Positions 22,809 through 54,178 of a stretch of DNA of 64,000 nt are shown piece by piece (position 1 is the stretch's first letter; each line of letters starts with the position of its first letter). Both the position numbers and the translations under genes were made by a program. Origin of the DNA: Prostheceraeus crozeri (Eukaryota; Platyhelminthes; Polycladida; Euryleptidae); assembly GCA_907163375.1 (NCBI GenBank), contig CAJQUW010007072.1:268279-332278 (forward strand). The letters are read 5' to 3'. Under the pieces are notes generated by a model that was not told where the DNA came from, did not search any database, and worked only from the letters and a program-made list of their open reading frames with translations.

Positions 22809-24451
22809 CCCTGTGGGAAAGGATCGTGCTAATCACCGGCAATGATTAGCAGGCTAAAAGCATGCCGGATTTCAGTACTTTTTATTCAGCTTTTCGCCAA
22901 CTATGAAGCCGGTCAATATCTGATTTTTCGTAAGCTATTCGCTCGCAATAATACCTACTTTTAGCTAGATAATTTTAGGTTCGTACTCGCCATTTGTAAA
23001 ATTGATAAATTAAAAACAATTCAGGACCTGTTAAATTATGATTAGCATACCTGGGGAAGCAAACATATCCAATTAGACGATGCTGGTTATTGTCAAGAGC
23101 CTTTTGTGAATGAAATCCTGAGGAATATCAAGTATATCAACTTCGCTCAGGATTCCAGAGAATAGAGGCTTTAACAAGTAATTCAGGGGCATTCAATGGC
23201 ATTAGAACGACATAAAGATTTAGAAAAATCAGCCGAACAATGTCAAAAGATGCCGATGTTAGATATATTTGACCATGATCAAATTTGATTTCGAAGAATA
23301 TCTGAAAACCCACCTGAAATATGAAGAGAACTGTTTATAAGGCATGTATGAATGAGATGAAGTCATATAATTATGATAGTAATACAACTACTACATTATG
23401 TAGTAGCTACATCAAAATACCAAATAAACATAATGCATGTTGTGTATACTTCCCATCTACTAGTACTCATTCTATGTACATAAAGTTCCGAAAAAAATTG
23501 AAAACTTAATCGCAGATATACGCATTTGTCTGATACTAGAGAGTGAAGCAACACTGCGTTGATCAAACATCTCCAGCATATCAATTTTCTTTATCACATG
23601 CAAGAAGACAGCCGGATGAATGATATATAAACCAATCAAGGCCAATGCAAATGTTAGTGATTAGTGACGACATTGAAAATCACGATTGAAAGGGTATCAA
23701 CCTCCGTCATGAAATCACAGTAAAATCAAGACAAATTATTCCCTAAGACATTTTTGTCATCTATGCGAAATCTAGAAACCTTTTGAAAATTAAGTTTTTT
23801 ATTTCATATTACATCTGTAATGACTGTCTATCATACTAGTCAAGTAAGAAATGTGTTGTTTCATTCAAGTTGCTAATTTTGATATCGACATGGCTTTCTC
23901 AAACATCACATCTCAGATTTTCAAGTCACTATCTATAATTAATTGATAACCAGTGTGTTTAAGCGGATCAAAATTTATCTTTCGCTCGCTTCATTGCTAA
24001 TTTGCCCAAAATCACTTTATCACTCGCCCACCCCTCATTTCCTCGTAATCGCCCTTTCGCTTGCTCACCTCTCAAAACCTTCACAAAATGCCGCTCGCTC
24101 TAACACACGGGATAAGACATACAATTGTGTGAACTATCATTCCCTTACTCGATCAACTTCAAGTTATAACAATATTTACGAAATGTTGTATGATGACAAA
24201 AAGTATTAATCCAACGCAACAATTTTACATTAAACACAATTCCTTGTAAATGTATTTAACAACAGGTTTTAATAGATTCCTAGATCAAGTTAGAGAAATT
24301 ATATCTACAGGAGTTATAGCTTTTAACGAAACAGAACAAAGCAACTTAAGGTAAATATTTGCTCATTACTAATTTATATTACAAAACGGAATCTATGTAA
24401 ACTTCAGACCGAACAAAAATGTCATGCGCATAACTGAAAGCAGTCATTATC
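22809..24451. other. Left (3') flank of E1, no gene seen
   Basis: Within 60 bp of the tip are short inverted TGATTAGC/GCTAATCA and GCATGCC/CCGGCA words, probable subterminal motifs. The rest is AT-rich without a supported exon. Confidence 0.4.
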
Positions 24452-26377
24452 TCATATGTCAAGTATTTCACCTAAATCATCATCCAAACAAATAGAACTT
24501 ATAACACCATCTGGTTTCACATTCTCACTATGCCTTCGTTTGAGTCTGTTTGAGTCTTTCGTCGATTTGCAACAACGTTTGATGGCATCTATAACTTCGG
24601 CTTCCGTTCCACTTCCAGGTAATCTTCTTACAACAGCATCTACAGATGAAATTCGTGTATAAAATTGACTTTAATCAATATTTGTACTCAATATATGCAC
24701 ATAGAAATACAAACAAAGGATTTTTCATGCTTTGAAAATTCCCAAGACACCAATTTTTTAAAATCAACTTTTTTCTTTTTACCATAGGCGAAGTGATTAC
24801 ATCTTCTACTATTGATCAATATTCAGATCTGGTGATACAGTAGTAGGATATTCTTAATGAATACACTGTTAATCCTCCCATTCTCTCTTTGATTGAAATA
24901 ATACAATGAAAGGTCTGAAACTTAAAAGTTTACACTAAATATTAAGATGTTAGTTAACAGCAATTAACAGAAATATTTCCTTACATGATATTAACGGCCT
25001 GAGTTTTTCTAACACTGAAATGTTATGACAACGCTACCATTTCATCGTTACTTGGTTAGTCTAGATTTCCAGGCAGAACACTTACTTTTGATACCCTTTG
25101 CAATGGTTGCAGGAAATTTCGTGCAGCCACAAGATCCGTCCCAATTTAATTTGAGGATCACATCATTTGAAAAAATGCGTCGCACACAAAAGTAAACTTG
25201 GACGTTGTAGTTCCACCAATAACTGCCATTGTATCAGCCTGAAATGATGTTTGGACAATTATTCTACGTAGAAGGATTGAGAAGCAAAGCCTGTTATAAG
25301 TATAACAACCTGTGAAGATTGTTATAAGTATAACAACCTGTATAAACCTGTGAAGATATAAAAGTATAACAACATATAACAACAGTATAAATTACTTTTA
25401 CAACAATGAATGACTTTATATTTGTGTGACGGTGAAATCAAAATTGTATCAGAGTGGATATGAATTTGTAATGCACGAAAGTATGGAGCTGTAAATGTGA
25501 AACATCGTTCTTTTTGTTTTCTAAGTATTTCTTATTTCTAATCATAAAATATGTACATATATAGTACATTGATATGAATAGGTTGTAATTTGTTAAAATT
25601 CAAAGATATGAGAGTATATACTTACAAAGCGGTCAAATTTTTGATGGTCTTCCCGTATCTCTGTATCAAAGTTCATTACTGCCTCCAACGAAACCAATGG
25701 CAATCGATTCCGTAGTTCGTTGTTATCACCGCGATTGATTTCCATTACAAATTCTCTAAGCAACACTTGCTCTTTTCTTAGTTCTTCTTGCATCTTCACC
25801 AATGCTTCTGTCCTTGAGTTTATCAAATTCAATTTCCTTACCGGAAAAGATGTGAGTGACTTACTCTGCTTTTCTGACACATGTACATCTTGTCCTACAT
25901 CGCTGATTGGCGACGACTGATTGACGCTGATCGGTGGAGGTTCTGTTTCGACACTTTTAGTTGTGCCACAACTATTACTTGAGATGCAGTTCTCATTCTT
26001 ACTTTTCTTAGTGGATGTTTCATCCCCGCTGGTGAGGATCTGATTTAATGGCTCATGAATTATTCGCTTTCCAACATGAAAACGTGGTATTCTAATTAAT
26101 AGGTCGGGTAGCTTCTTCTTCTTTTGGTTCAAGAGTGCAAGGCATCTATCCTCCGTATATTCCAAATCATCTGCAGTAAAACCAAACTGAATAACGGTTG
26201 CGTTGTACGTTTTTCCAGCATATTCTGACTTAATATCAATCTTTGCAGATGGATTACCTTCAATTTGCTTAAGGTGCGTTGGAGATAGGGAAGTATCTGA
26301 TGTTTTGACAATTGCAATAGTTTCATCTACTTCGAAATACACCAGGGCGTATAAACATCGGTCAAACGGGAGCATTT
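24452..26377 (-). CDS. DUF4806-type protein gene of E1, three exons
   Basis: Exon 1 (26377-25626) follows a TTTTCAG acceptor. From ATG 26375 it encodes 250 aa: an N-terminal block (YALVYFEVDETIAIV), a Ser/Thr/Lys-rich linker, a coiled segment (ALVKMQEELRKEQVLLREFV) and LPLVSLEAVMNFDTEI. It ends at GTAAGTAT. Exon 2 (25238-25086) lies between TTTCAG and GTAAGT and holds AVIGGTTTSKFT then VRRIFSNDVILKLNW. Exon 3 (24639-24452) encodes AVVRRLPGSGTEAEVIDAIK and a stop. The order LPL-helix, VR-I--LLSN-L---NW-G, AV+ is that of DUF4806 (PF16064), a domain of unknown function often seen in invertebrate transposon-associated proteins. Exon phases agree except for one base inside exon 2, so this copy appears frameshifted. 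The start lies 24 bp past the transposase stop. It may be an accessory protein, but the role is unknown. Confidence 0.7.
25290..25390. repeat. Short tandem AAGTATAACAACCTGT repeats in intron 1
   Basis: The word GTATAACAACCTGT/AAGTATAACAACAT recurs four times at irregular spacing within the first intron of the DUF4806-type gene. Confidence 0.5.
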
Positions 26378-26401
26378 CCTGAAAACATGAGGGTAAGTTA
26401 A

Positions 26402-28428
26402 TTAAGGTAGCGGAATCACCAGAAATTCATTTTTTTCATTCAATAGGATGCATTTACCAACTGGAAAAACATCTCTAACCTTGAGCCTGGTAAGTGAGTA
26501 ATAGCCAACATTCAATGTTTGTGAAGGATACGGATACGTGTATAGGTTTCTCGAGAACCTTAAAACTTTGCCACTGATACGATTACAACTGACGGAGGTG
26601 ATCCATACAATTCTTCCATCTTCGAGGGTCGCACAATTATCAGGTGGATTTTTGGAAAATATCAAACCTCGAACTGGGACATGTTTGTACACTTCTCTAA
26701 TGTGGAAAATACGGTTCACGGACTGTTCAAAAATCTTAGAACTGGGTTTTATTCTTCTTTTTAGTATACCAAGGTAATTCTCAAATGTAAAACTTGAAAA
26801 TTTATCTAAAGGTCCATGAAGCGGGACGAAGTCCGGTAAATGTTGCAGAACATGTACATTGTACGACATACCTCGTAAAGCATATATCTCCGGAAACATT
26901 TCAACAAATTTAATCACACAGGCTTTTGCGTTGGCATGATACAGACCATGGTATTTTTCAGAAACTAGGCAATATATTCCAAAACTAAGTAACATGAAGT
27001 GATCGTACACTTCTGGCTTCATATACGGTCGGAAAATATATGGTCCAGCAAACAATAGTAGAGTGCGATACTCGGTGGCCTTAAAATGAACTAATTCCTT
27101 GAATCCTTTGTAGAATCTTCTTTGGAACTCTCTCGGAAGAAATTTGGAAAAAAACATTAAGTCAGATGACAAACTTTCAATTTGAGAATGGGACAATCTG
27201 GATTTCATATGACAGCCTTTAATGGGAGTAAATGTGTATAACATCATCTGTTTCATCACACCAAGTAACACAAGGTGCATGTATTCAGGAGGAAATCCAG
27301 TCATTAAAGGAACAATACCAATTAATGGAGACTCTGAGCATTGATTATTTCCCCGAAATGTTGATAACCTACATCTGAACGAGGAGTAGTATTTGTTTCA
27401 GGAAATATTATCCTATTTTCATGATATTCGCCTTTTTCCCTGCAATAACCACAACCGTAATAAGCGGTATGCGGATGGATGCATTGGATATACGAACGCG
27501 TTGGTGCATCGCGAATACATACAACGCTTCCCAAAAGAAATTTTGAATTGCCAATCTGAAACCCACTAGTTTTCAACTGCAATAACTCATCACGCAGTGG
27601 ACTTAAAAAATCCCGAATATCTGGTTTCCCAACACCCCCAAACAATCCCAATGGCAAAGGTCTATCATAGCCATTGACTAACATTAAAATTGTCCATAGC
27701 TGAAAATTCGACCCAGAAAAAAGAGGTAAACCGTCAATGTTTATCTTCAAATGCAATTCATATGGAGACATTTTATCTATATCTTCTATCAAGTTATGCT
27801 CAATTAGAAATTTAAGGTTGTCAACAATCGTGAAATAAGCTATTTTACCATTGCTGACTGTTTGACAATGCATCTCACTATTCTCAGCCCCTTTCATAAG
27901 CATGTGAACCGATTGAGAAGCAGGTATGTTGTGCCTATTGAGACTTTGTAAAATAAAGGTCATGCCTTCTCTACCCGGATGATACGTAAGATAAAAGAAA
28001 CGAAGATCATCGGTTAAGGAATTTTCCTTAGGACATTTCCCATCAACCTCACCGTGCGACAGAATTGTTTCATCAAAATCATCTGATGATCCTGAAGATA
28101 AAGAATTACTTCCTTGAGTAAGCCAATCATTCCAATCAATATCAGTTTCAATGTCTTCATCAATTACTATCGATTGGTTACTGGCATCTTCCAAATCAAC
28201 TGGAATGCTATCCTTATTATCTACTTCATTCCGATCAATGTCAATGTCTTCATCAATTACTGTCAATTTGTTATTAGAATCTTCCAAAACCACTGGAATA
28301 CTATCTTCACTATCATCTATCGGCCTATTCTCGCTTGATAATTGCCGTCCCTTTTTGTCGTTTTCGATTTCCTGCAATATCACAGCCGATTCCTTTGCAG
28401 CTTGAAGGTAGATTTTTCGGGATGCCAT
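26402..28428 (-). CDS. CMC/CACTA-like transposase of E1 (one frameshift)
   Basis: Two abutting frames encode one protein of about 670 aa. The first opens at 28440; ATG 28428 (MASRKIYLQAAK), just after a TTGCAG acceptor, is the likelier start. A Ser/Asp/Glu-rich N-terminus contains a tandem duplication (DSIPVVLEDS/DSIPVDLEDA). Then follow NSLTDDLRFFYLTYHPGREG, the first catalytic Asp in KINIDGLPLF (236 from the 28440 ATG), the second in CIRDAPTRSYI (311), and a Cys pair YYGCGYC. Near 27320 a one-base shift moves into the second frame: PLIGIVP, then FPPEYMHLVLLGVMK, a His-rich helix and FTFENYLGILKRR with the presumed catalytic Glu, ending at TAA 26402. The DGLP / DAP / EYMH-LG / FEN-LG series is that of the Transposase_21/CMC group (established family knowledge). 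A broken homologue is at 50224-50924. Apart from the frameshift the gene looks recently functional. Confidence 0.82.
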
Positions 28429-28551
28429 TCTGCAATACAAGTATTCACAATCAAACTTTTGTAATAGGTCTACATGTTACAGTCTATACCATACATAACA
28501 TTTTTTAGTACTCTCTACAGTGAGCACATAAGTTTGTGGATGATAATTCCT

Positions 28552-29541
28552 TACACTGTAAATCGCTGGATACGAAAATTACATACAAACACATACCAAG
28601 TTTACATACAATTTGAAACCAACATTTGATACGAGATTCTGGTATATATAAAGAAATCTGGTATGTTTTTCATACGAATGGCCATTTACTTTCGTATGTG
28701 ATTGGTATGTAAACGATACGAACTATGCTAACTGTGATTGGCTGTTTTACGTTGAAATACGAATTCTTGGTATGTTTTATATACGAGACCCGATGCAAAT
28801 TGGTATGTGTTTCGTATGTCTTTCGTATGAATAGCTTTATGTCATATGGCAAAAAATATGTTATACTACATACTACTTACAAATAACTTTTTTCCAGTAA
28901 TACCAGTCGTGAATATTTCTTTGTGAAAGTGTGGTATTTAACTAAATTAGATTTATTGTGAAATTAAAGCCGCATGTCATCTTTGCAACTTGTCATAGTC
29001 AAGACTCATAATTAGCTCATTTCCTTGAACTAAATTGATAATCATCATTTCAATAAAACGATGACTTTTCAGCAACCATGTTGACTTATATATCTCAAAC
29101 ATAACTATTTTTGCGTTCATGAATTATAATGTGTCTTTATTTTGGATTGATAATATACTTAGTTCCAAAATTACATAATGCATAATTGTTGATGGTCAAA
29201 TACTTATTGATTATTTATGGAATGCCTCGGACTTACATGTATTAAAATCGAATTCAGTGTTGTTAGTTTGACTATAAAATGTCATTATCTCACTACTTAC
29301 AAAGCAGTAGTAGCATTAGTGTGATCTTTATTGACAAAAGGCCTTAAATCAACATACTTTGGACATGATTGATGCTTTCTTTTAATATTGTGCTGGTATG
29401 GCTTTAGTATGTAAAGCATACCACACTTGAAATAACATGCGAAAAGCATACAAATATATACCAAGATCATACAGAAATATACCAAAAAAATATCTTGGTA
29501 TGCATCCTTCGTATGTGATTGGTATTGAGCGATTTACAGTG
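28552..29541. mobile_element. CACTG-tipped non-autonomous element inside E1
   Basis: Begins CACTGTAAATCGCTGGATAC and ends AGCGATTTACAGTG, with TA on both flanks. The 990-bp body has many copies of GGTATGT and ATACGAA/TTCGTAT in both orientations within the outer 300 bp at each end, the subterminal repeat pattern of CACTA elements. No protein is encoded. It lies just upstream of the E1 transposase gene, so it may separate that gene from its original promoter. Confidence 0.8.
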
Positions 29542-29881
29542 TAGGCATAGAAGAATTATAGGCCTAGACACGAACTCATCGGACATTAAAGGGGCTACAT
29601 TTAATCTACGCACGACCTACGGAAACTTTCAGTAAATTTCCTACATCAGTCAAACGTTTATGTTGGATCTGGTAAATCGTCCAAAAATTCAATCAAAACA
29701 TGGGTATGGACATTTGAATTTTGTGAAATATATGAAGTTTTCTGAATGGCATGGAAATAGATATTTGTCAATTGTCTACACGATATTCCTAATTATTCGT
29801 GGTTATATAAACAGGTTTCAGCTAACTAATTAAAGACGAAATCGATTTGTTGTAATTTCCTAGCAATAACATCGATGCTCC

Positions 29882-29883
<2 letters not shown>

Positions 29884-29954
<71 letters not shown>
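29884..29954. repeat. (CT)n microsatellite, about 35 units
   Basis: An uninterrupted CT dinucleotide run of about 71 bp. Confidence 0.98.
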
Positions 29955-29959
<5 letters not shown>

Positions 29960-32483
29960 GTGCGGTATTAAGAATAATAATAAATCTCAATAATTCTGTC
30001 AGTTAGTATCACAATGACCTAAACACCATGTTCCTTAAAATTGAGTTATGCTCCTAGAGATGTTCTTTAACATGTTTTCCATTATGTGACAAAGGATGAA
30101 AGTGATTCGTACCTTAGTATCTACTCGTACTTGACAGAATGACAAAACTTGACTTAACGCATGGAAACACACGAGTAAGCCAGGTATTTATTTCTCAACA
30201 ATTTCCTCTATGGGAATTTTTTCTTTGGTCTGGGGGCTATTTTCTATTAGGTCACTTTGAAACGAATTGACAGAATTATTGTATAACATCCTACAAGGTA
30301 AAATGTATGCAAAAAACTTAAAGACTTTAAAATTTGACAAATGACTGCATGCATAGAACTTTAAAAATTAGTATGATGTAGGCCTATATATAATGCCCAC
30401 CATTACTTGTGCTTAGCAAAGATCACCCATACTCACTCGATCAACAATGTGCGTCGTCAAATACCGCATTCTCATTGCTTATTATTAGACCAAGTAGGCC
30501 TAAACACATTTTACCCGAATCGACTCGCTTCGTCTCGATTTTGACAAAAGCGCGACTCGCAGGGTCCTAAGTCCTTGTGAATGCATTGTGATCTCAAATT
30601 TAATAAAATGGACAGAATGAAATAAAATAACTAACCACTGCCCACGGCGTCTAGTGTCTGTAACTATTCATCGGAATGGTGATGAATTTACTGCATCCGC
30701 GAAATTTAGTTTCAGAATAACAACAGTTTATGACAACTGAACGGTTACACCTAAAGGTTTGCAGGTTGTTCATATCTAATCAGGTTTTTTAATAAAGTAC
30801 ACTAAATCTATTATTATAAAAATGGATATAAAAAACAGATTTGAAAGGCCGTTATCTGTACGATTTTTACATATTCATATATCATTTATTGTACCGGGTA
30901 ATATGATTTAAACATTTTTATTACATTTATACGATATGCATAAAGCTTACCATTTATGGTCTCACTATTTCATGTTATTCTCAAGTTTATCAGATTTTTT
31001 GTGAAATTATAACGAACTCGGTTTCTGAATTTTACAGACCTACTAAGTTTTACTTATAGGGTTCGTAGTATAAGATCTTGAGGGTGTCATGGAGGACCGA
31101 CAGTGTCCGGGAGAAACAGGTAGGGCCGAGGGTTAAGACAAGAAAAAGACGAAAAATGTTAAGAATTAAACAAGAAAGCCGAGGAAATGGGACGAGTGGA
31201 AATATTGGGCTATTCGCACGAAAAAAATCGTGCTAATAACAGAATTGAGTAGACTCGGCTATTCACACCAAAAATTCGCGTGGGTAGTCACTGCACATTC
31301 GAAGTATTAGTTTAGCTAGCCTACCAAGGCCAAGTCTTTTAAGGAACTCACCCGGCCATGAATCTGACGTCTGAGTTTCATTATCAAGGCTGATTTGCCT
31401 AACATACAGGTAGGCCTACCTAAGGTTGACAACATTCACGATATCAATATATCTCATAAATACCGTGTTAATGGCGAACTTTGATAAGTTGTCAATCAAT
31501 GACATGGTGAATTTATGAAGGTAATGTATCCAAAATAAGCTTTACTGACATACTTGGTTTTTATCATAAATAATAGCGTGCAGCCAAGACACCATTGACA
31601 ACAACACTATTTAGTCACTCAATAAGTGTTATATTTCATGCTTTTGCCTATGTTTTACAATTATTTTATTCAACATTTTTCAATACTAATAGCAAAATAT
31701 CAGCTCCAACGCATCTTAATGATACAGAATGATTCGCTTGAAATGTAAAATAAGTACAGCTAGACAACGTGAAAAACTGAAAGAATTTTTTGACCATGGG
31801 TAGGTACTGAATAAAATCTCATTACATAGCTTAAACAAATTCATAATAAAAAAAATTCAATGCCATCATGTTATCATCTTACATAAAACTTTGTTGTATA
31901 ATGCTCTATTCAACATTAATGGAAGAAAAAAAGATTTCGCCAGTACGTTTACTTCACATAACTTAGGAAATACTCATAATGAGAGTCAACATAAAAAAAT
32001 ACTGAAGGATCTATATTTTGATGTAGATCCATGATCATCTCCATAAACAACGGATTCTACAATATAAGGTCTTAGTAATGCAGAATCCGATGTCTATGAT
32101 CTTCTGTCTTTTTAGACAAGAAAAGATTTTGTGTTAATCAAATTCTTAAGGGTTACACTAAAGCAGTCAAATTAACCAAGAATGTGTGTGATAAGATGCT
32201 GGAAAAATAAAATATATAATTTTATATTTAATTTCGTTTCTGTCCAATGTCTCGAATTAATTTTGTCAATTTAGTGTCTTTTTATGATTCTTGACAACAT
32301 AAACGTTCTAGAATTTGAAGTGGCTAATATGAGACTATTTTAAGCAATTGTTTAGCGGTTTAACCGTTTAGATAAATGTAGGATAACAATAGCCGGTTTA
32401 TCGCGGTTGAAAGTTTAATTTCGCTATCAATATCCACCTGACCAGATATTAGCCGGCTTTTTGCAGGATACGTTCCCACAGGG
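29955..32483. other. Right (5') part of E1, no exon recognised
   Basis: No gene is seen; TAGGCCTA occurs at 30379, 30495 and 31411. The last 150 bp before the tip contain GCGGTTTAACCG and TAGCCGG words that may be subterminal repeats. Untranslated first exons of the minus-strand genes could lie here. Confidence 0.4.
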
Positions 32484-32790
32484 TATTTATGATTCTACTC
32501 AATCCCAGGACTGATCCCAGGATTAGCTCAATCCCGCGATGGAGATTTTCCGGGATATTGAAATCCCTACTTGATACCCAATACTTGGGACAAACGAAAC
32601 GTAGATAACATCAAAGAATAAAGGAACACATAAGAGGCAACTCAGCTATAAGTAACCATTTGTGCAATGACACTATATAATACGAGTATGTGCAATTAAT
32701 AACGAGGTACCTCAGCTGTAAGTAGCCATCTGAACATACATGTACGTGTAATGGCAAACATACCCTTGCTAAATATGGATGTGCTTAGTT

Positions 32791-33216
32791 CACTAGGTGA
32801 CATACCACACTCAATCACGCGTAATTACACATGACCCCAAACATCTGTTGCTATGCGGGATATTGCTGCGATATAAGTTATATAAGTTAGTATAGTTGGC
32901 AGTCCTGTTATATAGGCTTTGCGTCTCATGTGTCTGCATGTATCAGAGGCTAAACAATGTGATAGGACCTCAATTTCATGCTCAGGGAAGACAGAACATG
33001 CTTAGCGGTTCATCCGTGGTTCAAGCGGCAAAGTATAAACGCTCGCCCGCGCGTATTCATAAACATTTCCCATGTTTTAACAACATCAGATCAAGTGATT
33101 TCTGACTCTTAGTGAAGCGCGTATGTACGCGGGTAGAAGAATAGAATGTCCTTAACCACGGATGTTTGGGGTGTTCCGTAATTACGCGTCAATTACGCGT
33201 GGCATGTCACCTTGTG
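32791..33216 (+). mobile_element. CACTA-tipped MITE, copy M2
   Basis: Begins CACTAGGTGACATACC and ends GGCATGTCACCTTGTG (426 bp), uninterrupted. The interior matches the two halves of M3 (40563-40726 and 54179-54519) in order and orientation, so M2 serves as an empty-site reference for the E2 insertion. The open frame inside is a by-product of the repeat. Confidence 0.88.
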
Positions 33217-40562: not shown

Positions 40563-40726
40563 CACTAGGTGACATGCCACGCTCAATCACGCGTAATTCA
40601 CGTGTGAACCACGCACAATTACACATGACCCAAACATCCGTGGCTATGCGGGATATTGTTGGGATATTGCCGCAATATAAGTTATATAAGTTAGCATGGT
40701 TGGCAGTCCTGTTACATGTATATAGA
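40563..40726 (+). mobile_element. CACTA-tipped MITE M3, left half
   Basis: Starts CACTAGGTGACATGCCACGC and follows M2 through TTGGCAGTCCTGTTA, then stops at TATATAGA, where E2 begins. The continuation is at 54179. Confidence 0.88.
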
Positions 40727-40905
40727 CCCTGTGGGAATGCATCTAGCTTTTCCCTGGCGAATTATAGCATGCGTGAAGCATGCCAAAGTTCAATCATGTT
40801 TGCTGGCTATTAGCTGGATAACATAGCTGCCAGGTCGCCATCGATTAGCTGTCATTTAGCCAGTTGCTATCAACTTGCGAAAATTATCTGCAGCTGTTGT
40901 TGCTT

Positions 40906-41090
40906 GTATACTGTAAGTGTGATTACCATTATGAGATCTGTTAAAAGTGAGAATAAGACCATTATAACCATCATATAACACATTGAAATGATCCATTCAA
41001 TTTAATGTATTGATTCATTACATTATGTGATGGTATAATGGCCATACTCACTAGTCAGAACTCATTATGGTTATCACGTGTACGGTATAC
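40906..41090. repeat. 185-bp foldback MITE inside E2
   Basis: The outer GTATACTGTAAGTGTGATTA pairs with the complement ending CCGTATAC-type sequence at 41090, and the arms stay alignable for about 80 bp (ACCATTATAACCATCATATA against TGTGATGGTATAATGG). Only a short loop remains in the centre near 41000. Confidence 0.75.
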
Positions 41091-41139
41091 GTTACAAACG
41101 ACAACTAGGAGCAACAAACTAAATGACACGTTGACTTAC

Positions 41140-41193
41140 TTGGCATAAATTGTCTGCAACTTCAACATAATTCGGCATTGGTTGAGCAGTTTT
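41140..41193 (-). CDS. Possible 54-nt internal exon
   Basis: On the minus strand a TTGATTTTCAG acceptor and a GTAAGT donor frame exactly 54 bases, in phase 0, encoding KTAQPMPNYVEVADNLCQ. Both splice sites are strong and the peptide is protein-like. I could not find convincing neighbouring exons. It may belong to the 3' gene of E2, the counterpart of the DUF4806-type gene in E1, or to a captured gene. Confidence 0.3.
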
Positions 41194-41199
41194 CTGAAA

Positions 41200-42193
41200 A
41201 TCAAAAACTGAAACCAAGAAAACAATACAAGACTATACATGAGTTTCAAAAATAGCTGATTATTGTCAGAAGTCCTCGATTACTCATTAACAACGACAGA
41301 TGATTAAATAGAATCGATCTGTTGGAGTAATGGCCATGTAAAGACAACAACAATGAAGGATAACAGTTGAATGTCGATTAACACCGTCTTTTACTTCTTC
41401 CATATCACTGGCAGATTACGATTTATATGAAATCTATCAGAGAATGCATTCGCTAAGACAAGCTGCATTGAGATCCGCTATTGCGTCCCTGTTAGCAATC
41501 AAACATGTACATACGCTTACCTGATATTCAAGAAAGGTATGTGTAAGCAAGGTTCGTCCGGTATAAGGAGGTATACCTGCCCTGAAATACGGACATTGCT
41601 ATCATGTATTGAGAATCGCAAAATGTCACAGCAATGGGATGGGAAGCATGGGCCTGAGTTAATAAATGACGTTAGCAAAGCTAATTATGCACTCAGAGTC
41701 TCTTTACACCTCATGCTATAAAAATGCGAAGAGGGAAATTCATCAGGCTTTATTGGTAGTGGTATGTTTATCAGTAGATTGATGACGCGCTGAGGCCAGT
41801 TTAGTCAGAATTTGGATACAGAAGAAATTGTGCTAAAGATTGTCTACGAGCATTATTTTCGTTTCCCGAAACTTCATTTGAATATAGTGAAAGTGAATAA
41901 ATACTAATTATCGAATACAACATGAAAAGCATTTCCTAAGTATATTTCAGCTGTCAACTTACAATTTGGACACAATAATTTTATATTAATTTCAATACAA
42001 TAATTAATTCCATTTTCCGTGATTTTTTATTTTTCTAAGTCAGTTAAACATTTAAATGAAGCAGCCCGTTGGTAGTCTAAAATAAGTTTCACACATTTGT
42101 GTCATACTGTAATAAAATATTAAAACCCAATATCAGAACTCAATCAATACATTTTCATTACATGAAAAGTAGTGCGCAATGCATTGAAAATCC
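41200..42193. other. Non-genic sequence in E2
   Basis: No exon or repeat supported. Confidence 0.4.
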
Positions 42194-42484
42194 AAGAATT
42201 TTCAAAACTAATTTTGTTTGGGAAAATGAAGTATTCATGTTGTTATTACTATAACTGTTTTTTTAAATGTCAATATATTTAAATAGACTAGACGTCGTTA
42301 TCATCAGGGCGTGCATCTTAAAAAAAATTTTAATTAGAAATTCATCTATATTCTAAGATCTATGCCCCGATGATAGCGACGGTTAGTCTGTTGAAATATA
42401 TTGGCATTAAAAAGGCAACAATATACTGGCATCAAAAATAATAATATTAAAAATACTTCATTTTCCAAATCAAAATTATGAAAA
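42194..42484. repeat. About 290-bp foldback element in E2
   Basis: Left arm words GGAAAATGAAGTATT, GACTAGACGTCGTTATCATC and right arm words GATGATAGCGACGGTTAGTC, AATACTTCATTTTCC are reverse complements in mirrored order over about 125 bp per arm, folding around AAAATTTTAATTAGAAATTC. Confidence 0.75.
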
Positions 42485-45203
42485 CAAATGAAGGTCCTTT
42501 AGCTCCATGCTTTTTTATTGATTCAACCATTTCATGAAACTCTGTCAGTATTTCTTTAGAAGAGCAATATTTGATTTGAAATACTAACGTATGATGACCT
42601 GATAGACATTAAAAGCTGGACATTCATAGCTAGCATTTTGTAAGATAGGGTATCTTGTCTAAAAGTCGCACACGAGACAAGGAACTACTGCGTCACTTTG
42701 GGACTTAACTTTGCTCACCCACAATGAAATCAAACTAGTACATATACTCCATCGTAGTTATGCATGTATGTAATAACTAGATAACTAGATATGGAAAAAC
42801 TAGATTAGCAGAATTATCTACGTCACCATGATTTCCCAATATTACTTGGAATAGATCCTTTAAGCGCATTGATGAGACTAAACACATGCCCATTTAAATT
42901 TCGCAAACTCATCATGAACTGATGCATTACTCCTTCAATCCTTTCCAGAATGATTATTCCGTGTGCCTTAATACAAATAAGCTAACACGCATGGACTTCG
43001 AGCGCACTTCGTAATAGTTTCCATATTTCAGAATCTTTCCCAAAACCTTTAATAAAGCCAGGAAGAAGCCGTGAACTGCAGAGATCTGTGGATTTTTGCC
43101 ATCCACTTGAGGAAAATGATGCCTAACATGAAAGATATAGATAGGTATTAGTACTAAAAATGCTTAAAATACTTAGGAAAATTTACCAGGCAATGGCAAA
43201 TCAAAACAATAAGTTGAAAAGGAGAAACGTGAGAAAACAGGAGGGATGAAGAGGGCAATCATGCATGATAAATTATTTCAAGTTTGGACATCAAACGCTT
43301 CGCGTTCAGATATTCAGATTTTTTTCTTGAAAAATTAGGAAATCAATCATGTAACATTTCAAATGGAAAGATGATTTGATACGTTGATAATCAATGCCAG
43401 TAAGCCAACAAGGTAGCGCTAGCATACTATAGGCCAAAGGAAGTTGAAGCTTTAAATGTTCTTGGTGAAACCTGCTGTGTGGTTATTCATTCAAATGGGC
43501 CCCTGCGAGTACTCAGAAATCCCAGCCGATTTATTCGACAATTAGACAAACGTATTCGGATTGGAAGCTTTTATCAATTGTGTATAGTTGTACGTTTAAG
43601 TTGTTTTGTTCATTTTCTGGATCAATAGACTAAAAATCTTGTGAATATCTTGATATCAAAAATGGTGTTTCCTTTGATTGATACTGCCATTTCCGTGGCT
43701 TTCATTAGTTTCATCAAAATTTTGACTTCAGAATTTTGAGAAAATCCATAAAAATGGAATATACCCATAGACTGACAATTAATGGATAAGAATCATATTC
43801 ACAAGCATACACAAAGCAGATAATTTATTCGACCTGCATATATAATTCTAACTTGAGCTCAGTGATGTCTTAGCAAGGTCTATGAAGTTCTATGAAGCGA
43901 CATTGGTTGTTGATGGTGAACCTACAGGGATCAATACAGAACCCATGTATAAATCAATTTGTTTGTTTGAAGCAGCCAACCCTTGTCTTAACAAAATGCA
44001 GAAGTAGGCATTATACTTTATATTCCGCATCATATAGCCTATCCCTACAAGTAAATACATGAAGCATATTACAAGTAAGAAGCGCAACGTAGTTGATAAA
44101 ATCTATTTAGAAACATCAATAGAAAAACAAATGTCAGTTCATGCAGGATGTCTACAAAAATCTGAGACTTTATTTTAGGACTATTAGGACTCCTTGAGGC
44201 CAACATTTAGGAATTCCATTTATGGATTTAAGCAAATTAACTTACCAGTTGATTTGTTTTCAAATTAAAGGGCAATTCATCCCTTTACTTTTTTATCCTT
44301 TGAACTGTAGTGTTTTACGTCGTGAAATGCATTTCATAAGATTTTCTTAAATACAAGGCGACATTCAAAAAATGTATTAGTATTTAGAAAGTTTCCATTG
44401 TCCATACCCAATCATAATAAAGACACAGTAAAAAGAATAAATGATTGTTAAAAACTACAGAACAAAATCACAATAAGTAGTCCACCGATAATAATTTTCA
44501 GAGACAGGGATATTTCTGAATAACCTATACCAGAAGACATCCATCCGCTTAAGAACACATTTTCCTGCAGTGCCATGCGAGAGCCAGATACGGGAAACAA
44601 TAATACCCAACGATGTAGAACTTGTGTTATTGTGGCTATTACATGAGCATCCTACGTCAAGTACAACGATGGGACTGGCTACCATGAATTGTGAAGAAAA
44701 TGAAATGATTTTCTTTTTTAAATATCAGAGCTTTGTTTTAGAACATGGAAACAAATATAAAATGCAAGTATTATAGGAAGGAGGCGGCTAACTGAAAAAC
44801 TGATTTCATAATTCATGTTTTATTAATTTCATAGTTGAACACGAAGAGAATTTGCAATTTTCAAACGAATTTTGCAAGTCTTCGCCTTAGTAACTTTGCT
44901 AAGTTAGAAACTAGGTAGTCCAGATGGTGAAAAAATTAGGATCTCTGTAACGGAAGCAGTCGCTGTAAAATTCGCATTTGTAGATGCTTTCTGCGAAAAT
45001 CAAAGATCTCACACTCTGATGCTTATGACTTTGTAGACACCCTGTTGATAACAAAAGGGAGGATCATTCTGAATGTAATAGTTATACATTCCATTCACTT
45101 TGATGGCCCTTATCCAGACATCAATGTAATTACAAGTCTGATCATAAAAAACGGACCACCGATATTATGTCTAACTTCAATCGATTCTAATACCTTACAG
45201 CTA
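42485..45203. other. E2 interior, possible exon fragments only
   Basis: No gene is certain. On the minus strand a 55-codon stretch near 42960-43125 (with HHFPQVDGKNPQISAVHGF) and two similar short stretches near 44460-44530 and 45005-45165 (YYRWTTYC and YRWSVFYDQTCNYIDVW) look protein-like. The latter two resemble each other and could be duplicated exons. None has a full set of splice sites. Confidence 0.3.
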
Positions 45204-46571
45204 TAGGGTAAATCCAATTTAATCCACAACATTTGACGAAAATGTGTCTTTGATTTGTAAAATCCATATTTCTGAACCGATTTCAATAGTTTTTTTTTAA
45301 TCGAACCGTAAAGATCTCATCTATTATGGCATGGTTTTTAAAAAGTCACAAAGCCAAGACCTTCTTCACAAGTTGCCGTTTTTTGCCGAAAAAAGACCAA
45401 AAAAGCATGTCCAAAGTTGCAGTACTCTCAGTTCAACACGGATTTTCGATTAGATACATTCAAATACACCCACTAATATTTATATCATCTGAAAGAAGAA
45501 GATCAGCTCTTTAAGACAGTCTAATTTTAAATGTTATAATCAATATTAATCATTGAATTTTCACTGGGTTTCCATTGTCCAATGAAAAAAATGTCCTCTG
45601 ACCGAGACGTTTTCTGTCCTCTGACCGAGGTACCTTTTCTCGAAGAATATTGATTCTTCCGTTAAACGTTTTGCACCAAACGAATCCTCTAGTGTGCTAG
45701 TTTATAAATCCGTAAAGAAAATTCAGTTTGATGCCGTTACAAGTGTGCAATATTGATTTAAAAATATTTTTATCCGTTTTTTCGACCAGAGAATTTAACT
45801 ATTCCCAAAAATTTCATATGGATGCTGAAACCAGAAATTTTGTCAGGAATCGATGAAATTTCACAGCATAGGAGGGATCCATGCTCTTAACATCTATGCA
45901 AAAGAAATTTTTCATTTATATCAATTAGCCCTCTCAAAATCTCCAAAAACCACGAAAATGTCCTCTGACCGAGACCCTAAAAAATCTCGGTCAGAGGACA
46001 ACGTTGAAATTGAAGATCTCGGTCAGAGTACAAGGGTCTCGGTCTAAAGACATGATAATGTATGCAATTACATTTAGATCACTTCGTTTTACGCGTTCAA
46101 GTATTCGTCCAAAGTTCCCGCAGTCTCATGAACCCAAATGCACAAACCGAAGAGTTTCCTGTTCGACATCAATTTGTCCTCTGACCGATACCTTAAAAAT
46201 CTCGGTCAGAGGACAAGGTGGGTCACGGTGAACGGACATTATATGCAATACATTACATTTTGGTCACTTCGCTTTACGCATGCAAGCATTCATCCTAAGT
46301 TCCCAGTTTCATCAGCAACCCAAATGCAGAAGCCGAAGAGTTTCCTATTCGACATCTATCTGACCGAGATCAATTTGTCCTCTGACCGAGATGTAGAAAA
46401 AATGGCTTTTTAAAAGTGCTAGATTTCTATGGAAAGTTTTTATTTGGTGTGGTCGCCGCTAAGATTTTCGTGTTCAGCGTAAAAAATGAGTATATATGCA
46501 AATTTTCACGGAAATCTGAGACCCAAAGTTGAAAAGACAGAAATGTTGTGGAATAAATTGGATTTACCCTA
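45204..46571. mobile_element. TA-flanked non-autonomous element E4 with an internal motif array
   Basis: The 31-bp terminal inverted repeats start TAGGGTAAATCCAATTTA (45204-45234) and are mirrored at 46541-46571 with one mismatch. TA duplicates flank both sides (45202-45203, 46572-46573), as in Tc1/mariner-type transposition. The 1368-bp element has no coding capacity and contains the TGTCCTCTGACCGAGA cluster. Confidence 0.87.
45592..46391. repeat. Ten copies of TGTCCTCTGACCGAGA in both orientations
   Basis: Direct copies begin near 45592, 45615, 45959, 46175 and 46376; inverted copies near 45985, 46017, 46037 and 46200; a partial copy lies at 46359. Some pairs face each other across short gaps (45959/45985; 46175/46200) and can form hairpins. 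Part of the multiplicity comes from a tandem duplication of about 170-180 bp (46048-46220 and 46227-46392), but the single copies outside it show that the motif was already repeated. Confidence 0.9.
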
Positions 46572-47420
46572 TACCGAACATTAACGCGCCATGCACCATT
46601 CGAGAGCTTGTGTTCTCAACTTTTAAATGGGCTGTCATACACTCGTGTATGTACCCGGGACGAACACACCAGATGCTTTTGTTAAATATTTGGCAAATAC
46701 TTGACAACATTTTACTAAACTTCTACTAAAATTTTATCAAATATTTATCTAACATATCTAACCTAATTATTTACAAGATTCTCCACTAGGGAAATTGTTT
46801 AACTTTGGCGTCTTCCGTTTCCTGGATCCTTCGAATTTTTTTGACCGTGTCGTGTCTTGATTTGATAGCTGATGATTTGCCAATTTTTAGCAAATAGCAA
46901 ATTATTTGGTAAAATTCTAATTAAATGTCTCAAATTTCTCTCTGATATTATCTTACACAACTCTTACGTGAATTCCCAACAAAAAACATTCTACAACTGT
47001 TCAGAAAATGTCGTGAATTTGCTATAAAAACATTCCAAAAAATGTTATATGTTCAAATGACAATACATGAGAATATTATGAAAATGTTTTCTTAAAACAT
47101 TTTTAGAATGTTTTCTAGACATGCCCCAATATTTTGCCACAACATATATCGTAGATGAACTGTAGTTTTATCAATAAAATGTGAGCATCCTGCGAATCCA
47201 CTTAATGAGTCAAGATGAAACTAAGTTTAACGATGTGTAAATATATTGCATTATAATTATAACATGTATAATTTACACATCATAAAACTTGTGGGTTTGA
47301 TCTTGACGCATAAAGTGGGTTCGCAGACCGCTCACATTCTATTGATAAAATTACAGTTACCCTACGCCGTGGCAAAACATTGATGAAATTTACCGTTGAT
47401 ATTAATTGAATATATTGTTG

Positions 47421-47756
47421 ATCGAAGTCATCCTGCTGCGAAATGCTCCAAGGATTAACAGCAGAAAAACTCAATGCTGCTAAAGCCAAAACATTCGGAG
47501 GCAGTGATAAGAATAGCCCTACATATTTATACATTATAACTGTTGATTGCTGTCATCATGCTACGAAATGCTCCAAGGATTAACAGCAGAAAAACTCAAT
47601 GCTGCTAAAGCCAAAACATTTGGAGGCAGTGATAAGAATAGCCCTACATATTTATACATTATAACTGTTGATCGAAGTCATCCTGCTACGAAATGCTCCA
47701 AGGATTAACAGCAGAAAAACTCAATGCTGCTAAAACCAAAACATTCGGAGGCAGTG
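47421..47756. repeat. 125-bp tandem repeat, 2.7 copies
   Basis: Units start near 47421, 47546 and 47671 (ATCGAAGTCATCCTGCT and variants), each containing GGATTAACAGCAGAAAAACT. Units are over 95% alike by eye, so the duplication is recent. The minus-strand frame across it that looks like a signal peptide is a product of the repeat. Confidence 0.92.
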
Positions 47757-50200
47757 GCAAAGAATCACATAATTTAAAGACTCACCTCATCAGCAGATGT
47801 CAGCCTACAGAACTGTCGTAATTGTTCCTCTACCATCAATTGTGCTGGTTTGGTCAGTTTCAATCAGTTCCTATTTATGATATCTCTTTGATAGACAATG
47901 ATATTGCGGTCTGAAATGCACAATAGAGTTTTTGATGCAAAAAGTATTGAACGTATTTGACGCACATAAGAGAAGGAATAGGCCATACAGAATGTAGCAT
48001 AATTGAAAAATAGGAAGATGACACAGGTTTTGATCGAGCTTCTATTATAAGAATCAATCAGGTGATATTTTTAACTATCTTAGTATCTTTTATCATCCCA
48101 ATAATTTACAACAGCACGAATTAATCCATAACACATTTTCCCACGGTGGACAACATATGCCGGTTAAGCAGAAAATCCGATTTGATATTTGATGTCAAAT
48201 AATTTCCCCATTAACTGAAATCAGTAACAATAACGTACCCTCAAATGTCTTGCACAAATCCAAATTATACAGTGAAGCATTTGACCTATTTAAAAAACCA
48301 CAAAAATTCGTATTTAAAAAAGTATGCCAACCCTGCATGTAGGCCTGACAAACGACGGTTTGGATGTGCACGCAAGCTACATTATCGACAGTATCAATCA
48401 GCGAATTAAAGGAAGATTCAATCTTTTTCCACACGACTAGCTGGTGCAGTGATAATAGTGTGGTCCCAAAGAAGCCCTGTGATCCTGATGTTTAGCACGA
48501 CCACTTCACTTCAGTCATGTATCTTGGACAGTTTCAATGCCACATTGGTGGACTACTTTTTAGTATCCCTTTCTCTCTCAAGAATAGATTTTCAGTAGAT
48601 TCAATGACACATGAGACGACTGCTGTGCACATTGCTAAGAGGTGCGCGCTGTCATGGTGAGGATTGTCCATAGAATATGGATTCTCTCTCTATCCTCGAT
48701 TCTGATGAATTTCAGAGGAAGTTAACTTTCTTATGATTTGATACGATTTGATGAGGGACCACACTATCATCATCGTACCGACCAGCTCCCGAATGAAACA
48801 CCCACTGGAAGGCAGCCGCATACGCTGCGGATTCTATTCGAGAATCCGGAGAACGCTTGCAATTTTTTTAAATGGAGGAAATTGATGTTTATTTACCACC
48901 CATTTTGGGAAATATGCCTCATCATCAAGGATCGAAGTCTCCATCTCCTATCATGATGAATCACACGATTAATTCTTTAACTGAATGTACATTTTATTTG
49001 GTAATTGAAGGACATTATAATTTGAATGGTTGGCTTAGAATGTTTTTTCAAGTCATCTGTTTTTACACCTGATTTACAAATACAATTTATTTGCTACTGA
49101 CATGTCTGAATAATAGTGACGCACTATATGCACTCCATCTGGACACCCGACGCTAATGATCTTAAACAAAGGATGACAACATGCATATTACAGTATCTTC
49201 AATGAATAGAGAAAACTGCGCCGTCAGTCTTCACTTCGACGAGCGGAATCACACCCACACACAATTCATGAGGAATCCGTGAACTGACTGATAGACGTAG
49301 AGCGCGGCGAAGAAATGCTGTGCAATGTTCGAAGTCGGGAGGCTCGCCATCTTGAAGACATGATAATCCCTTATCAGAATAGGTCAGAAATATAAATCCG
49401 ATAATTGCAGAGGTTGGGATGCATTAGAATAAAGTAATGCTTTAGAAATAATCATGAAAACTGATTACTCGTGCAACATGCTCGTGACACACTCGTGAAA
49501 CATCGGGAAATGATGGCAACTCTCTGAGCGCCTTATACAGACTTCTAAATATAGCACATAGTATAGGATTCTCGTCACGGGAATTCCTATCGTTTCCTGA
49601 GAACGGTTAGAGCAAGTTCGAAGCGATTACTACAGTTTGATAGGATCTCAGAGTCGGTGAAATTTCACACGACTTAAACTGTTTCTTCGATTTAAGGCTC
49701 TCGATATCATGACGTATCGAGTAGTTTTCACACAGATAATACACAAGATTCATACAAGCAATATGGAAGTAAAACATACAATTTCGAACACAAGATCTGA
49801 TTGCTACATTCGTGTTGAAACTTATTTTTAAGCTCATTTGACCAAGCATCGAATCACAGGTCTTCAATGAGATATATTAGTGAATCAATGCCTTTTGTGA
49901 CAATTTCTCATCGATTCTTGTCAATCAAAAGTTTAATGATCCTGACAACACACTGCGTTTTGGATGGCATATCAGATCTTATCTGAAAACATGTATTTAA
50001 TTAATATTTTGTTCTGACATTTAGGATAATTTGACTAATATTTCATAAATATTTAACAAAATTAAAAAGTTTTTTATAATTTTATTATTTTGCTTAGAAA
50101 CTGGTAGGCCTCTAACAAAATTAGCAAACATAGTAGGAATTTATCAAAATTTCTATTTTTCACAAAATTAGCAAACAGCTAGCAAGTTTCTAACAAAATT
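47757..50200. other. E3 interior, no gene recognised
   Basis: Apart from the possible short exon noted under E3, I see no gene; the last 200 bp hold subterminal repeats. Confidence 0.4.
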
Positions 50201-50223
50201 ATTCGGTTTGCTCGTCCCGGGTA

Positions 50224-50924
50224 ATTGTACAGTCTGGTTTACTCTGGACAGATGTCAAAATGCAAAAACCGCCTCTCAGAAATCACAACTTTCAAACAGA
50301 AGTATTGGCCATAAAGTATGGTTAGAAGAACTGAATAAAGTTAGTCCATCTATATTTACTTTGATCTCAAGTGAGTGGCTGCCCTTACCGCTCTCTAAAT
50401 TTGAAATGAGACCTTTCGAAACAAGAAATTCAATATTCTCAGATATCGAAAATTATCCTATTTTTCCTTCAGAACGATCTTTCTCGTATAAACCGGACGG
50501 ATTGTTTGCTGCCTCAACATATGTAACGATGATGGAACTGAAATTCCATGTCGATTTAAACTCTGCAGAAGAAAATTCATTCCTGCCCTGCTCGGGTGGT
50601 ATACATGATAGAACTCCAGAAGATCATCAGTGAGCGAAGTAGGTGATGCTGAGTTATCTAGATCTTGGTGTGGGGTTACTTAGGGCTATCTTCGAAACCA
50701 CTTCCACTTTCTACTTCGGAATAATCCTCTACAGCATTCCAATCGATTTCATCGTCTGAATCAAAAAGGACATGTGAATAGGATGCCTTGGTGTCTGGAA
50801 CTGAGTTGTCAAAATAGGGCTTATCGGAGTCATTATCAGACCTATCTGCTCGACCAAATAGCCTAATTGCATCTGCTGCTGTAGCCGAAGAAGTTCTGCT
50901 GTTCTCCTCGACATTTGAATATAT
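50224..50924 (-). pseudogene. Broken CMC/CACTA-like transposase of E2
   Basis: Read on the minus strand from an AG acceptor at 50925-50926, it encodes a Ser/Asp-rich segment (FDSDDEIDWNAVEDYSEVE) matching the acidic N-terminal part of the E1 transposase (ETDIDWNDW), then a stop at 50676-50678. In another frame follow SLTDDLLEFYHVYHPSRAG and NFLLQSLNRHG, matching SLTDDLRFFYLTYHPGREG and FILQSLNRHN of E1. A further shift reaches KVNIDGLTLFSSSNHTLWPI, with the first catalytic Asp, matching KINIDGLPLFSGSNFQLWTI. Soon after a KPD-like segment the sequence meets the right end of E3. At least two frameshifts plus an insertion inactivate it. It ties the E2 tips to the E1 gene family. Confidence 0.85.
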
Positions 50925-50929
50925 CTATA

Positions 50930-53900
50930 AAGAGATACCATACTACGCTGCTTCTGTTGGATGATAGGGACATCACCGCCAATTTTGTAAGGTGACATAC
51001 CTGAGGTATAGTTGTGTTGATTTTGTGCATCATGGAAAGTCCCAGAGATAGGTTTTCATGCATTCAGCAATATAGCATTTACTTTTTGATATCTATGTGG
51101 GAGAGGAATCGGGGCTGCTACTTGGGCTTTATGACTGCGGTGTTATAAAAGTAAAAATTGTCAGTGTTCTTCATTCGTGGGAGAAACACAGGAGTAAGTT
51201 ATGAAAATTTATTTCAATAGTAAGTGCTACAATTCTAAAAAAGTTATTCTGCTTATTGCCATAATGAGTTTTATGACTTCACTACTTCTTCGCGTGGTAC
51301 CGGTATCTACTCTTACTGGAAGCTTCATTCTTTTGATCGTGGTGATATACTCCGTTTTCTGTGTAACATTTTTTCGATAAGCTCTCTATAATTTGGGATG
51401 ATTTTGTTTGTAGTCAATAATTCGTTTATCAGATTAAGTCAGCAAATTTTAACAGGCATGTTTTAGAAATCATGCAAGTTGTAAAGAACTTTCAGGTTTT
51501 TGTTAGTTAAGCTCTAGGACTCATAAAACTCAAGTTCCCTTTAAGTCCTTCGCAAGCGGCCTAGATTTTACTTAACATTTCAGCTAGGGGTCTCGAATAT
51601 ATCAGCCTTACTTGGGGAACTGTTTCCTTATGATAAATGATAATATTTGGAGCTCCTGCTTCAGGAATAGAAATATCAATTTCAATGTACTGTGCTAATA
51701 TTCTATCAATTCTGAAAATTAGATCATGAAATGGTGAATATTATTACAAATAAATAGGAATTCTCTCTATTCATACATGTAAACCTGTTACAAGAGTGCT
51801 TACCTAAGTTCACAGTTCAGAGTTAAAAGAGTTTTCCACATGGGGCAAATATAGGGGCTATTCCATCGTAGTGATAAACACAAGTATTGGATATACCTCA
51901 AATCCGTAGGTCTAATACTTGCTGCCTCACTTCAAAACCCCATTCGCGCAGCTGCATACCGATGCGAGGTGACATAACCAACATAAGCATACATTTATGA
52001 ACAGGTGAGAATATCTACGATTTATGAAGCCACGTAATTTTACTGTCAAAGAGATTGAATCTCAAATTTACAATAAAAAACATCGTCTACTTGCAGCAAA
52101 TTTCATGTGTATCGTTATTATAAGCTTGTTGCTCCAAAATTCATTACGAGTAGCCTGTCAAGCTTAGTGGTGAAAGCTAAAAATATATGGGCTGTAAACC
52201 AGAACATCATCACATCACAGTGTTCGATTTCGGTGACATTGCATTTTTTTCATTCTTCGAAAATGCTTTATTGAACCCAATGTTAGCATGTGCAAGAGGT
52301 GAAAAGTTGAAATCTCCAACCACAAGTATTGTGTGCAAACATCTCCTAGCTAGCCATTGCAGAACTGGGCTCCTTTTCAATCTACACCCATCAACTAATG
52401 ATGCAAATCCTTGAATGGCGTATAGAAGCACGAAACTTTGTCCAGAATTATAACACAGGGGAGATCATAGTATGTTTCATAATTCAACAAGTGCAAAAAC
52501 TTGAATGTCGCACACCCAAAATCTAATTCATGACAGTGCAAATCACGCATTTAATAAGATCAAAAGATTTATACCTAATAGAAACACATTAATTATTGCT
52601 GCTACCGGTCACCACTATTATTGCGACAATTATGTTCTCTTACTCAGTTAACATAATGATAAGTAGATTCCATAACGAAAGGCTTAGCGAAAAGTCAATT
52701 GCATAGTAATAAAAATCAAAATCATTTCATAAATGACCACCTAAATACGAACAGTGCTATCCATCTGTCATCGATAGACTTCTCCTCTCATTATGTAATA
52801 ACTTCATTCCCAAAATGAAAGTGGCTTCGTAATGCGTGTAAATTGTGGCAGTACAAGGGGACTAATATGCAATTGCACCCTTAGCTCCCTCTCGTCTCCT
52901 GATGGTCCTGATCGGTTGATCTGTTGTCCAATATCAAGATTTATAGAAGACCATTCGACAATCGGGATCCCTGTCATACCCAAACCCTACTTGCAAAATT
53001 TCGTCCCCAATCCAGGCGACAAATGTCCACTTTCTTGTTCCCCTGCAAGTTCGTGCACGCGCAAATGTAGGCCGACCAACGTTGAAAAAAATATTTTTGA
53101 AAAAAGCCAGATTTTAACGAGTTCGTGTTAGCAAATACAAATTATCAGATGGCAATCAATATACATTCAGCAATTTTTACATCTCCAATGATGATAATTA
53201 TAATCTGTTAAGCATTGATAAGTAACCAAGTTTATAAATACTCTGAAGGAATCATGAAAAAAGTGCATCGGCAAAGTATGAAGTATCATATATGGACTTA
53301 ACTTGTAGTACCTTATTGAATAAATAGATGTGTGTTTTTAAAATTTACAAGCTTAGACAAAAATATTTTCATCGAAGGCATTCATCCGCGCAGAATGAGG
53401 TCAAAATGTAAGATCTACGCCCACGCGAAGCTTAGGGGTCTAAAACCTCTATTAATATTTATTAAAGAAATTTTATCAGTGAATTGCTCCAAGCAATTCA
53501 TGTGTTCCTTGAAGTACATGGTTGAAGTACAGCATAGTAGTATGTATGTATAATAATATAATGAGACATGAATTAATTTTTTTCTGTAATTTTATATTAT
53601 AATCTATGTTATATTTTAATAATGATGTTAATTTTGAAGAACTTCAGTGTCACATGAGACAAACGTGCCATAAGAAATTGCATATAACTTTAGAAAAATC
53701 TGCAATTCGATGACGGGTTCTTTTATGTTTGTAGCGTGCTCAGCTGTATGCATTTGTTGTAACCTATGTGCTGTTGCATTTCAATCGTGTGTTTCTGGCA
53801 TCAGAATCTCTTGCCTAACTAAATCTAGTGTCGTTTCAAAGTCACATCAACTTCGTTGAAGTTTTAAGTCTGAATGAAGCATTCGGGTATTCAATTTATA

Positions 53901-54178
53901 TAATTTTTTTGGCTGCTAATTAGTCGCTAAAATATCCACGATTTCGCCGATTGGCGAAAAATCAACTCGGATTAGTAAACAAATATCTACCAACTAATTA
54001 TAGCAACTTTTTCGAAACCTGTTGTTTTTTAATTTTACACATGTTTTTGGATAGATAATGACCATTTTCACATGTGCAGATAGTTTTTACACGAAAATGA
54101 ACCTTTAAAAAAATTATCCACAAAATCGCTATCTCGCCGGATAATCTGTTGATATTAGCAAGATGCGCTCCCACAGGG
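50930..54178. other. Right part of E2, no gene supported
   Basis: Upstream region of the broken transposase; untranslated or N-terminal exons may lie here but none is certain. A 73-codon minus frame at 52210-52431 contains ILVVGDFNF, like an endonuclease motif, without further support. The last 60 bp hold the TGCTAATATC-type subterminal words shared with E1. Confidence 0.4.

Follow-up and report, generated by a model that had tools for sequence, protein, structure and literature searches.

The question raised by this 64,000-nucleotide stretch of the Prostheceraeus crozeri genome (GCA_907163375.1, contig CAJQUW010007072.1, positions 268,279 to 332,278; the window hereafter) is what kind of DNA transposon is represented by two large elements, E1 and E2, that end in the same short sequence. 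An earlier interpretation made from the letters alone (the sequence-only reading) took them for two copies of one family, and for a distinct lineage of the CMC/Transposase_21 group having tips that begin with CCC and 2-bp target duplications. Our results suggest instead that E1 and E2 belong to two families of large CACTA-related (CMC) DNA transposons, closest to the animal elements named Transposons Related to CACTA (TRC; DeMarco 2006, PMC1636069), an assignment to which we give a probability of about 0.85.

All four tips were identical to CCCTGTGGGANNGNATC with no mismatch, beginning at 22809 and 40727 on the plus strand and ending at 32483 and 54178 on the minus strand. When up to two mismatches were allowed, the motif occurred 4 times in the window against 0.18 expected, and none of 100 shuffled sequences reached 4. 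In the 2.05-Gb source assembly (14165 contigs), the exact 17-base pattern was found 1723 times in forward and 1701 times in reverse orientation, 3424 in total, whereas the reversed control gave 0 and 0. E1 is flanked by TA/TA and E2 by GA/GA (Table 1), so that the tips and flanks had been read correctly from the letters. To these we added tip sites taken from the first places listed (contigs C6 to C491), where 30 loci, grouped by eye, resolved into 18 distinct sites: 12 short elements that have an exact tip at each end, two with one degenerate tip, and four with a single tip only (L040, L041, L044 and L052). Identical 2-bp flanks were found in 10 of the 12 exact-tip short elements (TT, CG, AT, TA, TA, AT, TT, GA, TT and CA) and in all three further E1-family copies in which both tips were found (TG/TG, AT/AT and AG/AG). 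Counting E1 and E2, equal flanks are present at 15 of the 17 elements that have an exact tip at each end, and at 16 of 19 when the degenerate-tip sites are included (L037 has TA/TA). The probability of at least 15 of 17 arising by chance, given the base composition of the window, is 7e-16. The duplicated dinucleotides were varied (TA, GA, TG, AT, AG, TT, CG, CA), and a 3-bp flank match was seen in none of the 12 exact-tip short elements. These results support the claim that the elements are transposons tipped with CCC and flanked by 2-bp duplications.

The insertion site of E2 provides further evidence. E2 lies in a repeat of which two other copies, both uninterrupted, are present in the window (Table 1). 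The occupied copy reads ...TATATAGA, followed by E2 and then GACTTTGCG. Comparison of the empty sites, of which the one at 14466-14605 has a single GA, with the E2 site therefore indicates that one GA was duplicated at insertion.

The sequence-only reading listed the transposase motifs DGLPL, DAP, EYMHLV-LG and FENYLG, correctly for E1, which carries a near-complete transposase gene on its minus strand. A frameshift separates the two main coding pieces of E1 (pieces 1 and 2), and the junction is read through in three other copies, on contigs C577, C1845 and C13588. The copy on C577 has an open frame of 592 amino acids, in which the motifs follow each other as NIDG (234), CDAP (310), CGYC (330), EYMHL (386), HVLQH (530) and FENYLG (553). 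This is the order D, D, CxxC, HxxxH, E of the CMC/CMCT transposases (PMC12730594), including the H(3-4)H spacing; by their positions in this frame, 75 residues separate the two Asp, and a CxxC, the CGYC at 330, follows the second. Box I of DeMarco, a motif surrounding the first catalytic Asp, was found in its strict form in 7 of 10 further E1-family loci and in E2. Among the others, E1 and the locus on C2255 have W-T for W-P, and the loci on C356 and C13310 gave no match, the former carrying a W-to-R change. An AlphaFold2 model of a 463-residue stretch of the C577 copy, built from an alignment of 3 rows, had a mean predicted local distance difference test score of 33.4, too poor to judge whether the fold is the RNase H-like one of the Transib/RAG1 type. 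The probable third coding piece of E1 had no Pfam match at E<0.1.

E1 is a member of a multicopy family. A genome search with 1141 bp of its transposase returned 29 matching stretches; 13 of these, E1 included, are 95-100% identical to the query and cover 1100 or more of its bases. The ten further family loci that were fetched showed 92-100% identity to E1 per aligned block of at least 140 bases, and in three of these loci a tip was found at each end. E1 itself also hosts a nested element of 988 bp (28554-29541), with tips CACTGTAAATCGCT and flanks TA/TA, which is missing at the same site in all ten other loci; a 21-bp pattern from its tip, with up to two mismatches, had 3306 and 3253 matches in the two orientations of the genome and 0 in the control.

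Concerning the relation of the two elements, the idea of one family with two copies in the window did not hold. At the DNA level E1 and E2 are alike only at the tips and in short scraps (best blastn E 0.009), and in a tblastx comparison the resemblance was confined to the transposase stretch (E 2e-24), weak matches aside. Homologous minus-strand transposases had been ascribed to both elements; E1 indeed has a near-complete gene, whereas E2 retains only a remnant, consisting of two overlapping fragments that correspond to residues 122-208 and 192-250 of E1 piece 1, with one in-frame stop each. A counterpart of the EYMHLV or FENYLG part was not found in E2. E1 and E2 are thus two families that share tips, and not copies of one element. 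The only match to the E2 transposase stretch found elsewhere in the genome (C3215:51139-51788, 95%) lies 350 bases from a 56% match to E1 piece 2 that has a stop-free open frame of 667 amino acids. Because this relative of E2 adjoins the piece-2 match, the catalytic region of the E2 family is probably about 56% identical to that of E1. A separate feature of E2 is the motif CTCTGACCGAGA, repeated in both orientations at 45583-46400.

The 12 exact-tip short elements measure 726-791 bp, and their mean identities to each other are 95.0-96.9%. One of them, L033, was compared with E2: one of its ends matches the E2 right end (Table 1), and it is 74% identical to the E2 left end over 92 columns. Since L033 shares both ends with E2, the high-copy elements of about 775 bp appear, judging from these alignments, to derive from E2-type ends.

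We next consider where such elements belong among known transposons. As described in PMC1636069, TRC tips begin with CCC in Schistosoma (SmTRC1), Aedes (a 9.2-kb element) and Tribolium; 2-bp duplications flank 7 of 14 SmTRC1 copies, and three empty sites are reported. TRC protein matches are also reported there from sea urchin, tunicate and fish genomes. The TRC protein has a box A ([LVI]-D-x-[LM]-H-x3-L-G), box I, a CxxC and two Asp 80 residues apart, and SmTRC1 matches the Pfam family Transposase_21 (PMC1636069). E1 and E2 resemble TRC in the CCC tips, the 2-bp duplications, box I, the CxxC and the large size, and differ in the tip letters after CCC, in box A, which here has P-E for [LVI]-D, and in not reaching Transposase_21. 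A further likeness is offered by Hydra Spongebob_HMa (EnSpm-4N1_HM), filed as TRC/CACTA (Zhang 2015, PMC4298943), which has CCC tips, a 2-bp duplication and a high copy number (441 listed); its tip is CCCAGCCAACATTGAC, its length 5.8 kb, and its transposase is given there as not recoverable. CCC tips with 2-bp duplications are therefore published for animal TRC in both papers, and the proposal of a distinct, undescribed lineage is to that extent not supported: the kind is already described, and the E1 and E2 families themselves appear to be new, although they may already be catalogued in Repbase. The passages of a Daphnia study (PMC2884549) that refer to DeMarco for CACTA tips do not give the tip letters. 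Among the 25 papers listed, of 1533, for the exact tip, the one containing both the tip 10-mer and the word transposon concerned bacterial triplex repeats.

More distant relatives share less. Plant CACTA/EnSpm elements likewise have a DDE cut-and-paste mode and a multi-exon transposase, but they have CACTA tips and 3-bp duplications (PMC4158355), neither of which was found here. Fungal Plavaka, ESTA and other CMCT lineages have the same D, D, CxxC, HxxxH, E series, and PlavakaA also has 2-bp duplications; they differ in their tips, TGT or CATCA (PlavakaA, PlavakaB), and ESTA has TA duplications (PMC12730594).

Several observations weigh against an assignment close to TRC. The strict box A was found in no locus, 8 of the 10 E1-family loci and E1 itself reading PEYMHLVLLG. 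Among the short elements, two with exact tips lack equal flanks (L029, TT/TA; L053, GC/TA), as does one of the two with a degenerate tip (L047, TT/TC). Subterminal repeats like those of plant CACTA elements were not detected in the four 300-bp ends, as examined by 7-mers against dinucleotide shuffles (P 0.13-0.73). CAC-tipped animal CACTA elements (ENS1_Cis and CMC-NA, 5'-CAC..GTG-3') also have 2-bp duplications (PMC6004678), so that the duplication alone is not diagnostic and the CCC tip carries more weight. Finally, Transposase_21 was absent from the Pfam matches of the E1 pieces at E<0.1, and from those of the 592-residue copy and the two main pieces of E1 up to E=10. Accordingly, the CMC/Transposase_21 assignment of the sequence-only reading stands for the CMC catalytic pattern and lapses for the Transposase_21 profile. 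We place the elements in CMC by the order of their motifs and, because the Transposase_21 profile was not reached, use the label TRC-like, not TRC proper; this profile was the sole TRC feature tested and found lacking.

A first alternative is that E1 and E2 represent a CMC lineage of their own, distinct from TRC/EnSpm, Mirage and Chapaev, in which CCC tips and 2-bp duplications arose independently. Nothing exceeded the cut-off for Transposase_21, DUF1258 or any other Pfam family: the E1 pieces had two matches at E<0.1, both below cut-off and to unrelated families, and the only transposase-like match of the 592-residue frame up to E=10 was DUF1258 (E 0.23), whose score of 11.4 bits compares with a family cut-off of 33.1. 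The genomic distribution agrees with such a lineage. A search with E1 piece 2 yielded 135 matches, 134 of 1690 candidates being scored, with identities of 85-100% (n=20), 53-63% (n=10) and 36-44% (n=105). None of the 135 lay within 5 kb of any of the 150 Transposase_21 matches listed (150 of 189 candidates having been scored), a further point against a close tie to TRC, or of the 150 DUF1258 matches listed (150 of 476 scored). Among the matches listed, 73 of the 150 Transposase_21 loci coincided with DUF1258 loci. The deviant box A points the same way. On the other hand, box I, the CxxC, the CCC tips and the 2-bp duplication all fit animal TRC, and the subthreshold matches sit on the expected pieces, DUF1258 over the second Asp and the CxxC, and DUF4218 (E 0.14) over HxxxH..E of E1 piece 2. 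DUF4218 accompanies plant CACTA transposases. Divergent and decayed copies commonly fail profiles, which also counts against a separate lineage, and we consider this alternative unlikely.

A second alternative is a Mirage-type transposon. Of the named catalytic profiles, DUF1258 comes nearest to the 592-residue frame, and PMC3985635 treats DUF1258 and Mirage as equivalent. However, that match is below any cut-off, and none of the 150 DUF1258 loci listed has an E1-type match within the same 5 kb; a statement of Mirage tips for comparison was not found in the literature searched. This identity seems highly improbable. The last alternative, a chance likeness of four short motifs with no element present, is already refuted by the 0.18 matches expected in the window, the 3424 against 0 in the genome, the duplications and the empty sites.

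If E1 and E2 are TRC-like CMC elements, a DDE transposase with the D, D, CxxC, HxxxH, E series would bind the CCCTGTGGGA tips and excise the element. It would then insert the element into targets chosen with little regard to sequence, where a cut staggered by 2 bases would leave the 2-base duplications. The enzyme of this E1 copy is frameshifted and that of E2 decayed; an E2-family enzyme may have mobilised the many elements of about 775 bp, as their shared ends suggest. A tentative and rather doubtful extension is that the E1/E2-type transposases form a deep, very diverse animal branch of CMC missed by the Pfam models, in which the CCCTGTGGGA tips are kept across families whose catalytic regions share only about 56% identity, the paralogues at 36-44% seemingly having other tips. 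Inspection by eye of the places listed revealed no exact 17-base tip near such paralogues on C25, C65, C99, C136 and C241, and near one on C259 only a short-element tip pair, 1.4-2.2 kb away. No relatives were found in viral contigs.

E1 and E2 add no new kind of transposition. The thinly described animal TRC-like group gains documented families, in transposase-bearing, decayed and high-copy short forms. Moreover, a CMC-type transposase group that has 1690 first-look candidates in this one genome, and at least 135 matches among those scored, can fall short of the Pfam thresholds, judging by the copies examined, and domain-based annotation could therefore miss such transposases.

Table 1. Positions in the window of E1, E2 and associated features.
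Feature	Position	Strand	Basis
E1, 9675-bp TRC-like element, transposase on minus strand	22809..32483	-	exact tips at both ends; 10 further family loci
E1 left 2-bp target duplication (TA)	22807..22808	.	sequence
E1 right 2-bp target duplication (TA)	32484..32485	.	sequence
E1 left tip CCCTGTGGGAAAGGATC	22809..22825	+	exact motif match
E1 right tip CCCTGTGGGAACGTATC	32467..32483	-	exact motif match
E1 transposase piece 1: acidic N-terminus, NIDGLPLF (first Asp), RDAP (second Asp), CGYC	27331..28428	-	366-aa open frame
E1 transposase piece 2: PPEYMHLVLLG, HVLQH, FENYLG (presumed catalytic Glu)	26456..27328	-	291-aa frame
E1 probable third coding piece, via short intron (GT..AG by eye)	25626..26378	-	251-aa frame
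E1 possible further 3' coding pieces: 25170-25238, 25051-25173, 24455-24664	24455..25238	-	short open frames only; weak
988-bp CACTG-tipped element nested in E1, TA/TA duplication	28554..29541	.	absent there in other family loci
E2, 13452-bp TRC-like element, transposase mostly lost	40727..54178	-	exact tips
E2 left 2-bp target duplication (GA)	40725..40726	.	sequence
E2 right 2-bp target duplication (GA)	54179..54180	.	sequence
E2 left tip CCCTGTGGGAATGCATC	40727..40743	+	exact motif match
E2 right tip CCCTGTGGGAGCGCATC	54162..54178	-	exact motif match
E2 transposase remnant, first-Asp motif NIDGLTLFSSSNHTLWPI, in-frame stops	50294..50679	-	tblastn 40-45% to E1, E 6e-12 and 2e-10
E2 right end, 92% over 265 columns to one end of ~775-bp short element L033	53916..54178	-	alignment
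Uninterrupted paralogue of E2 site (TATATAGG/CTTTGCG), reads ...TATATAGGCTTTGCG	32813..33030	+	sequence comparison
Second uninterrupted paralogue of E2 site, single GA (TATAAAGA/CTTTGCG), reads ...TATAAAGACTTTGCG	14466..14605	-	sequence comparison

The window contains further features. On the plus strand at 11013-12539 there is an open frame of 508 amino acids matching DDE_Tnp_1_7 (E 2e-68), which we take to be a piggyBac-type transposase. Between E1 and E2, also on the plus strand, a single open frame of 394 amino acids (35392-36576) matches aminotransferase class I/II (E 2e-30), and a frame of 289 amino acids (38762-39631) has a weak Tc3-type helix-turn-helix match, under the family cut-off (E 4e-4). 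Tandem arrays occupy 56836-59446, with 22-bp units followed by units of about 327 and 488 bp. At 61559-62469 we found about 900 bp of a G-rich tandem repeat on the plus strand, with a consensus that consists almost entirely of G; it lies where both the GC content and the GC skew rise.

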